DNA of 64,000 nucleotides. It comes from Desulfomonile tiedjei DSM 6799 (lineage in GTDB: Bacteria; Desulfobacterota; Desulfomonilia; Desulfomonilales; Desulfomonilaceae). Both the position numbers and the translations under genes were made by a program. Location of the stretch: contig NC_018025.1 of assembly GCF_000266945.1 (NCBI RefSeq), forward strand, positions 5,708,001-5,772,000, given 5' to 3'. The notes under the pieces were generated by a model, which made no database searches, was not told the DNA's origin, and saw nothing but the letters and a program-made list of their open reading frames with translations. Shown one piece after another: positions 49,685-51,440 of this stretch. How positions within the stretch are numbered: position 1 is the first letter of the stretch; every line of letters begins with the position of its first letter.

Positions 49685-50041
49685 ATGGGAATCTTCCGGG
49701 AACCTGGATCCCAGGAAATCGATATTGTAAAGGAAATGGCCGAGTCCCTTGGCAGTCAGGGAAGCAAGGTAGAGGACTTGGTAGATAAAGCGAACATTAT
49801 TCTCGGGGAAATCGAACAACTCCTGGAGAATTGCCGCAATCATCCGGGGGAACGCAGACCGCCTGTAGATTTCATCAACAAAAGGATTCGAGAATTCAAC
49901 GCATTCGTGGATAAAGCTGAAGACGCTCTTCGATGGCTCTTGATTCAGAGGGAAGCCTGCGGTTTCAGGACTCACAAGAACGTGAACACCTTTTATCCTA
50001 TTCCCGCTAAAAAGAAGCTGATAAAGACATGCGACGCCTGA
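49685..50041 (+). CDS. Hypothetical helical protein
   Basis: The 118-residue product starts at ATG 49685 (AGGAGGTG 11 bases upstream). It is helical and acidic-basic mixed (IDIVKEMAESLGSQGSKVEDLVDKANIILGEIEQL), without known domain, and ends with basic residues. The next gene starts 12 bases before its stop, so the two are co-translated. Confidence 0.65.
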   Translation: MGIFREPGSQEIDIVKEMAESLGSQGSKVEDLVDKANIILGEIEQLLENCRNHPGERRPPVDFINKRIREFNAFVDKAEDALRWLLIQREACGFRTHKNVNTFYPIPAKKKLIKTCDA

Positions 50042-50565
50042 CTCCACGCGTTTGTATCATCTGTTTTCTGGGATTTCTCACTGCTTTTTCGGCAATGACT
50101 GAGGCCGCGCAACATAAGAACCGCAAAAGCACAGTTTGGGCCGTGTTCTTTATGTCGCGGGATTGTGCCAAATGTGAAGCAGCAAAGGAGCTGATAGAGG
50201 TGCTGCAATTGCGCTATCCTTTGCGAGTCAAACGTTACGATATCAGCAAAGAATCCGATTACGCCGTATTCCGGGCCATGGAAGCGATTCATTCCGATAA
50301 GGGGTTTTTTGTGCCATTGATACTGGTCGGGGATAAGATATTGACTGGAGAGCACGAAATACTGGATAATTTGGAATCCACAGTCAAGAACCTCCACCTT
50401 GCAGGGGGAACTGCACGGCCTTACATCGGTCCTGTGGATAAGAAAGCGTTCCATTCCCCCGTGAAGACTGACACAGCGGAGTGCCCGACCTGTTCAAAAG
50501 GCCGCCCGCCCTCGGCTTCCGAGGAGCTCCACAAGGTAAAGAGTTTGCTTGACAAGATATTTTGA
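50029..50565 (+). CDS. Exported thioredoxin/glutaredoxin-like protein
   Basis: The 178-residue product has a signal peptide (VCIICFLGFLTAFSAMTEA) and a thioredoxin-like fold with active-site CAKC (FFMSRDCAKCEAAKELIEVL) and the cis-Pro segment FFVPLILVGDKILTG. It probably exchanges disulfides in the periplasm. A Cys pair near the end (CPTC) may be a second redox centre. Start overlaps the previous gene by 13 bases. Confidence 0.82.
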   Translation: MRRLTPRVCIICFLGFLTAFSAMTEAAQHKNRKSTVWAVFFMSRDCAKCEAAKELIEVLQLRYPLRVKRYDISKESDYAVFRAMEAIHSDKGFFVPLILVGDKILTGEHEILDNLESTVKNLHLAGGTARPYIGPVDKKAFHSPVKTDTAECPTCSKGRPPSASEELHKVKSLLDKIF

Positions 50566-50652: not shown

Positions 50653-50781
50653 CTAAATTCGGTATCCCGGAAGTTTTCCGGTAATCCTTCCGATCAGACG
50701 AATAGCGCAAAAAGCTGTCCCCCTGGATCGCTCTTCTGTCCGCTTCAGTAGAATCGATTCAGAGTTTTTTGCATTTGGGAG

Positions 50782-50810
50782 TTGACTATATAGGAATATA
50801 TGAATATATT
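50782..50810 (+). promoter_or_regulatory. Sigma-70 type promoter of the selenoprotein gene
   Basis: TTGACT (50782-50787), exact 17-base spacer, TATATT (50805-50810); start 35-40 bases before the ATG at 50852. The whole region is A+T-rich. Confidence 0.6.
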
Positions 50811-50851
50811 TACGTGCAACTGCTTCTATTTTCGAGCCAAGAGGTATTAGT

Positions 50852-51148
50852 ATGTTTACGATGGACAATGAAGCCAGAGATTTCTTTAAGGGAAAACTTA
50901 AAGAGAAACAGGTGCTCAGGGTATTTTTCGGCGGTTATGGTTGAGGCGGTCCCAGCATGGGACTGGCTCTGGATGAGCCGCGTGATGGCGATTCTTCTTA
51001 CGAGATCAACGAAGTCCCTCTCGTTGTCGATCCATTTGCCATGAAACTTATCCGAGAGGCGGGAGGCATCAGCATTCGATCCGGCATTTTCGGGCCCACT
51101 GCCGAACTGGATAATAGTTCCTGCGGCGCTGGAGGCTGTAGCTGTTAA
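50852..51148 (+). CDS. HesB-like selenoprotein (in-frame UGA read as selenocysteine)
   Basis: Reading through one TGA at 50942-50944 gives a continuous 98-residue protein: MFTMDNEARDFFKGKLKEK, then VLRVFFGGYG-U-GGPSMGLALDEP, then VVDPFAMKLI and a C-terminal CGAGGCSC. This is the IscA/HesB fold, with Sec at residue 31 where other HesB/IscA proteins have the first conserved Cys. HesB-like selenoproteins are known in Deltaproteobacteria. A hairpin directly after the TGA (50947-50965) can serve as the SECIS element. RBS GAGG and a promoter are present. Usual gene callers would split it into two short frames or call a pseudogene. It may bind iron or Fe-S clusters. Confidence 0.88.
50947..50965 (+). 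promoter_or_regulatory. SECIS hairpin candidate
   Basis: CGGTCCC (50947-50953), loop AGCAT, GGGACTG (50959-50965) gives a seven-base stem with one G-U pair, starting two bases after the UGA codon, the distance at which bacterial SelB recognises its hairpin within the coding region. Confidence 0.65.
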
Positions 51149-51158
51149 GGGGGCGCGC

Positions 51159-51359
51159 ATGCCGATTTTCGAATTTAAGTGTGAAAGCTGCGGAAAAGAG
51201 TTCGAACGCTTGATCTTTGCCTCTGATACAGATCCGGTCCCATGTCCGGTTTGCGGGTCTGAAAAAACGCGCAAGGTCTTATCGGTTTTTTCATCAAATC
51301 CTGTGGAACGGCAGGCATCAGCAGGTTCCTGCGGTACCCGTCATACTGGGGGAGGGTGA
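51159..51359 (+). CDS. FmdB-family zinc-ribbon protein
   Basis: The 66-residue product has the FmdB pattern MPIFEFKCESCGKEFERL and then CPVCGSEKTRKVLSVFSS, with two CxxC knuckles forming a zinc ribbon. The tail ends in a His/Gly-rich bit (CGTRHTGGG). Start with AAGGGGG. It follows the selenoprotein gene after 10 bases and is likely co-transcribed. Confidence 0.88.
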   Translation: MPIFEFKCESCGKEFERLIFASDTDPVPCPVCGSEKTRKVLSVFSSNPVERQASAGSCGTRHTGGG

Positions 51360-51401
51360 CACTGATTTTCCCCGCCGTGAGCGGGACATTCAGTCTCCAT
51401 A

Positions 51402-51440
51402 AAATGAAAGCCCTTTTCTCAGGAAAGGGCCTTCATTTTT
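51402..51440. terminator. Bidirectional intrinsic terminator
   Basis: Stem AATGAAAGCCCTTT / AAAGGGCCTTCATT with loop of a few bases, flanked by A-rich and T-rich ends. It serves the selenoprotein-fmdB unit and the convergent ligase gene. Confidence 0.8.

Follow-up and report, generated by a model that had tools for sequence, protein, structure and literature searches.

The window analyzed here, a stretch of 64,000 nucleotides from Desulfomonile tiedjei DSM 6799, contains a HesB/IscA-like reading frame that is interrupted by a TGA, which raises the question of whether the gene is broken or whether the codon is translated, and if so as what and to make which protein. The genome carrying the window is 6.53 Mb in two contigs, with a completeness rating of 99.99%. 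The frame at 50852-51148 starts with ATG, ends with TAA and has a single TGA at 50942-50944. Read through, it gives a 98-residue product in which the UGA is flanked by VLRVFFGGYG-U-GGPSMGLALDEP and the C-terminal tail reads CGAGGCSC. A first-pass annotation, made from the letters alone, had given this frame, TGA position, flanking peptide and tail, and translation reproduced all four. It had also predicted that automatic annotation would call the gene broken, and the standard code indeed yields only one ORF at the hesB locus, of 63 amino acids and 3' of the TGA. Standard-code gene calling thus treats this hesB selenoprotein gene as broken. The features discussed below, with the evidence for each, are as follows.

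50782..50810, + strand: promoter TTGACT-17-TATATT, whose spacer (ATAT-N5-TATATGAATA) probably serves as an operator (conservation; promoter scan)
50852..51148, + strand: gene for a HesB-like selenoprotein of 98 aa, with Sec31 and a TAA stop (read-through frame)
50942..50944, + strand: in-frame UGA, predicted selenocysteine 31 (aligned codon TGA in 56 and TGC or TGT in 25 distinct genes)
50947..50965, + strand: hairpin of the first-pass annotation, 8 pairs with a 3-nt loop (fold; stable here, poorly conserved)
50965..50979, + strand: likely SECIS hairpin, GGCUC-UGGAU-GAGCC, loop 50970-50974 (pairing in UGA versus Cys genes; silent codons)
51159..51359, + strand: gene for a 66-aa FmdB-type zinc-ribbon protein, the second of the two operon genes (TIGR02605, 60 bits; PF09723, 60.6 bits)
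51410..51430, + strand: terminator-like hairpin with a T-rich tail, 3' of fmdB (pattern scan; about one similar site expected by chance in such a region)

Conservation of the UGA among relatives

The gene was found in 17 of the 18 genomes of the same bacterial family, and all 17 copies have a TGA at the same position. That 17 of 18 genomes keep the frame with the TGA in place argues that the open frame is not due to chance. Within the family the median pN/pS is 0.25 for the part 5' of the TGA and 0.32 for the part 3' of it, so that purifying selection acts on the two halves as one protein. Across the phylum sample a relative was present in 131 of 247 genomes; most of these contain one TGA, and a smaller number contain none. 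Homologues that align on one side of the TGA only would, according to the first-pass annotation, have refuted the idea; they align on both sides of it, and the UGA conserved at the 17 family loci is paired with Cys in homologues. At the aligned codon 56 distinct genes have TGA and 25 have TGC or TGT, counts that are not frequencies, since the 25 Cys genes were chosen deliberately. Placing the Sec or Cys label on the tree requires approximately seven changes, and the exchange has therefore taken place repeatedly.

If the UGA were a true stop, through decay to a pseudogene or through a sequencing error, this would account for the 63-aa ORF that is all the standard code provides, and for the relative at locus L030, which carries an extra TAG besides the TGA and appears damaged. 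However, the same TGA recurs in 17 assemblies of the family, each independent of the others, and across many further families, selection is seen on both sides of it, and a hairpin and the Sec machinery are present, as described below. We consider this explanation scarcely conceivable. Judged from its sequence, the gene is instead an intact HesB/IscA-type selenoprotein gene that is broken in appearance only, and the predicted Sec31 stands where IscA-type proteins have their first conserved Cys.

The putative SECIS hairpin and the reading of the UGA

The first-pass annotation had placed a hairpin two bases past the UGA, and a stem does start there, at 50947. In the lowest-energy fold of longer stretches, calculated from the single sequence, this first hairpin is favored and the second one, at 50965-50979, is partly broken. 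Conservation gives the opposite ranking. Across 29 relatives the first stem is paired in 83% of cells, with one pair broken in 13 of the 29 sequences and covariation barely above that of shuffles, while GGCUC-UGGAY-GAGCC at 50965-50979 is paired in 100% of cells across relatives. The stem of 7 to 8 bp at 50947 was therefore rejected as the SECIS because of its poor conservation, and the likely SECIS is the second hairpin, approximately 18 nt downstream of the earlier choice. Its apical loop is small and contains G, as is typical of a bacterial SECIS. The loop starts 25 nt past the UGA, and a bacterial SECIS at such a distance stays outside the ribosome with the UGA in the A site. A hairpin immediately after the UGA, such as the first one, would be melted by the ribosome.

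The pairing of the second hairpin separates the two kinds of gene: all five pairs are present in 55 of the 56 distinct UGA genes, the exception being the damaged L030, versus one of the 25 Cys genes. This contrast narrows the likely family SECIS down to a hairpin of 15 nt. One UGA gene, L100, retains the outermost pair through changes on both sides. Since the same stretch also encodes a conserved peptide, GLALDEP, the silent codon positions provide a fair test of the RNA itself. These are invariant in the hairpin codons (GCU for Ala in 34 of 34 genes; CUG for Leu and GAG for Glu in 33 of 33 genes each), while the codons of equally conserved neighbors, among them Gly+6 and Pro+12, vary freely, the P values for these silent positions being ones that ignore relatedness. 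At this spacing behind a TGA, the exact hairpin motif occurs once in the genome. A search of 50700-51400 against Rfam, with E values up to 1, gave no match.

The hairpin was also seen in two other settings. Neobacillus and Bacillus genomes have the UGA form of the gene with the same hairpin (L065-L068), and a Cys-type HesB gene, L090, has retained the hairpin in full (GGCTC-TAGAT-GAGCC), apparently as the relic of a SECIS from before a change of Sec to Cys.

The other refuting condition named in the first-pass annotation was the absence of selA, selB, selC and selD from the genome. All four are there, with profile scores of 599 bits for selA, 404 bits for selB and 368 bits for selD, and a tRNA-Sec with anticodon UCA at 69.5 bits. 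The selD gene (L018 1501-2424; C1:3873142-3874065, + strand) itself contains one in-frame TGA, so that its product, selenophosphate synthetase, is in this genome probably another selenoprotein.

The genome also has a second selB (L003 1501-3387; C1:3562952-3564838, + strand) directly 3' of a second tRNA-Sec-like gene (L011 1501-1592; C1:3562734-3562821, + strand), which has the anticodon GCA, a discriminator base U and a T-stem that, judged by eye, apparently contains a bulged A. This arrangement of a SelB with a tRNA-Sec-like tRNA matches the described selC* tRNA-Cys and SelB* pairs (PMC7609411). The same report documents a selC* tRNA-Cys with a UCA anticodon in Desulfobacterales, where UGA may be read as Cys, and the second selB right behind its tRNA gene, together with the relatives that have Cys at the aligned position, could be taken to mean that the hesB UGA is decoded in this way. 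The anticodon of the second tRNA, GCA, speaks against this because such a tRNA should not read the hesB UGA; the tRNA with the UCA anticodon is an ordinary tRNA-Sec, and the hairpin is shared by UGA genes from many different families, Neobacillus among them. With the second pair ruled out as a route by its anticodon, we regard Cys at this codon as very improbable, and the UGA at 50942-50944 is almost certainly decoded as Sec.

The hesB-fmdB operon and its promoter

The first-pass annotation had pointed to a neighboring FmdB gene, and a zinc-ribbon gene was found starting 10 nt past the hesB stop. In 16 of the 17 family loci fmdB lies 1-16 nt downstream of the hesB stop. The exception is the damaged L030, where 193 nt separate the premature TAG from fmdB. 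In 12 more distant relatives that were checked, fmdB was not seen behind hesB. The FmdB protein encoded here is an ordinary representative of its protein family (TIGR02605, PF09723); what sets it apart is that, in this bacterial family, its gene has a fixed place immediately 3' of a selenoprotein gene. The neighboring genes in general were rejected as a clue to function because the whole neighborhood is syntenic in the family. Shared descent alone explains this synteny, and only the tight hesB-fmdB spacing is therefore informative. Upstream of the operon, an ORF at 50029-50565 (178 aa, weakly glutaredoxin-like) and one at 49685-50041 (118 aa) are present in 12 of 13 named relatives.

A promoter of the sigma-70 type, also proposed at first pass, was recovered as TTGACT-17 nt-TATATT with 10 of 12 matches, where shuffles give approximately one such site. 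A 25-bp element, TTGACNATAT-N5-TATATGAATA (here 50782-50806), precedes the start codon by 59-88 nt in all 17 family genes, with 14 exact copies and three with 1-2 mismatches, the loci including those upstream of L023-L038. The promoter spacer is more conserved than the -10 box, which suggests an operator, and on this pattern of conservation the spacer is probably an operator and the promoter regulated. In a genome scan for the element the site upstream of hesB was the only exact match. An inexact copy (C1:1638720, 2 mismatches) was considered as a clue to a regulon and set aside, as no gene beside it is clearly intact. A regulator acting on the conserved promoter and operator could reveal the purpose of the protein.

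Protein family, fold and possible role

HesB-like selenoproteins in deltaproteobacteria, which the first-pass annotation had described as known, were tabulated in 2006 (PMC1794560), and the sequence described here is a new member, in a divergent branch, of this published family as far as the alignments and profiles indicate. The top family matches were TIGR01911 (HesB_rel_seleno; E 4.5e-12) and NF038090 (IscA_HesB_Se; E 2.4e-11). Both scores fall below the curated cut-offs (46.4 versus 66.35 bits and 43.8 versus 85 bits, respectively), and we therefore name it a divergent relative and not a model-level member. It likewise missed the gathering cut-off of PF01521 (16.3 versus 26.3 bits). With the TIGR01911/NF038090 family it shares a Sec site in UxGP, which is a listed motif of HesB-like selenoproteins (PMC13188914), as well as the GLALDEP stretch, the IscA-type fold and the exchange of UGA and Cys codons. 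It differs in the C-terminal third, where this branch has DPFAxKxIxxxGGxxIxSxxFGPxAEL and that family has the VDY...GxGF part, and in having fmdB next to it and a conserved promoter and operator. No literature on Desulfomonile selenoproteins was found that bears on the subject.

A profile search of the PDB matched AQ_1857, HI1723, IscA and SufA. The AlphaFold model of the selenoprotein has a pLDDT of 86.5, and Foldseek with this predicted structure returned 2apn (HI1723) and IscA (1r94/1s98) at E values of 1e-5 to 4e-5 and a TM score of approximately 0.6. In the model the fold is of the IscA type, with the Sec at the first ligand position and the Cys in a flexible tail. The Sec lies in UGGP, an example of the UxGP motif, at the position of the first HesB Cys, and the candidate ligands here are Sec31 and the CxC of the tail. 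The number of tail Cys ranges from one to four across the family, some members having only one or two. The protein is thus like IscA, SufA, ErpA and HI1723 in its predicted fold, first-ligand position and Cys near the C terminus, and unlike these A-type carriers in that Sec replaces the first Cys and the tail CxC follows a variable linker in place of the canonical CGCG.

Taken together, the explanation that we think quite probable is that of a HesB-like selenoprotein with SECIS-directed Sec, a cluster or metal-binding function and an operon with FmdB; at the sequence level it draws on the conserved UGA, the pairing of Sec with Cys, a hairpin tied to the UGA, the Sec machinery, the operon and the predicted fold. 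SelB with Sec-tRNA-Sec(UCA) would bind the hairpin at 50965-50979, which would be far enough downstream to clear the ribosome when the A site holds the UGA, and residue 31 would become Sec. Sec31 and the C-terminal Cys would then most likely bind or hand over an Fe-S cluster or a metal ion. The selenoprotein would be produced together with the FmdB zinc ribbon from a conserved and probably regulated promoter, and FmdB may be its partner in cluster or metal delivery. Metal or cluster binding had been suggested at first pass and fits the IscA-like fold of the model, and the role of an Fe-S or metal carrier is the one that we favor with some reserve. A point against this reading is that a disruption mutant of the HesB-like selenoprotein of Methanococcus maripaludis still fixed nitrogen (PMC11097638).

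A less probable role is in redox chemistry or metal detoxification, in which Sec31 would react with a thiol, a metalloid or a toxic metal, assisted by FmdB and the thioredoxin-like neighbor, and the protein would not be a cluster carrier. Uncharacterized selenoproteins are mostly regarded as redox proteins, and metal binding by Sec has been proposed in some recent families (PMC13188914). The motif UGGPxMGLALDEP is unlike IscA, the other operon gene encodes a zinc ribbon, and the upstream gene at 50029-50565 is weakly glutaredoxin-like. Against such a role, the CxxU and UxxC motifs are absent, the predicted fold is of the IscA type and the tail Cys are mostly kept.

Returning to the carrier role, a search with PF01521 found a canonical A-type Fe-S carrier in none of the 18 family genomes, a result to be read with the facts that the same search was positive in 9 of 14 control genomes and that 10 of the 18 genomes are less than 90% complete. 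This leaves the selenoprotein as the sole A-type-like protein that was found. Five NifU/IscU-type scaffold domains occur in the genome carrying the window. It is tempting to speculate, though we think it rather unlikely, that the selenoprotein is the sole A-type-like carrier of the family and forms with FmdB a dedicated, separately regulated pair for Fe-S or metal delivery; if true, Fe-S cluster delivery in this bacterial family depends on selenium. Three traits were seen in this branch alone, namely the close hesB-fmdB operon, the conserved promoter and operator, and the lack of canonical A-type carriers, and a specialist might follow these up. The Desulfomonile branch provides a clean setting for a test of function, with a single copy, no canonical A-type carrier and a fixed fmdB operon.

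HesB relatives were noted in other contexts as well. On Cytobacillus plasmids (hits H2-H6) a relative lies at a site where the gene table has no gene. HesB-like genes that have the in-frame TGA and others that lack it are found next to each other, separated by a few hundred bases, in several families of the phylum, namely in genomes G225, G201, G115, G147, G175, G268, G155, G207, G055 and G247 (loci L104, L107-L109, L112-L115, L117 and L118).
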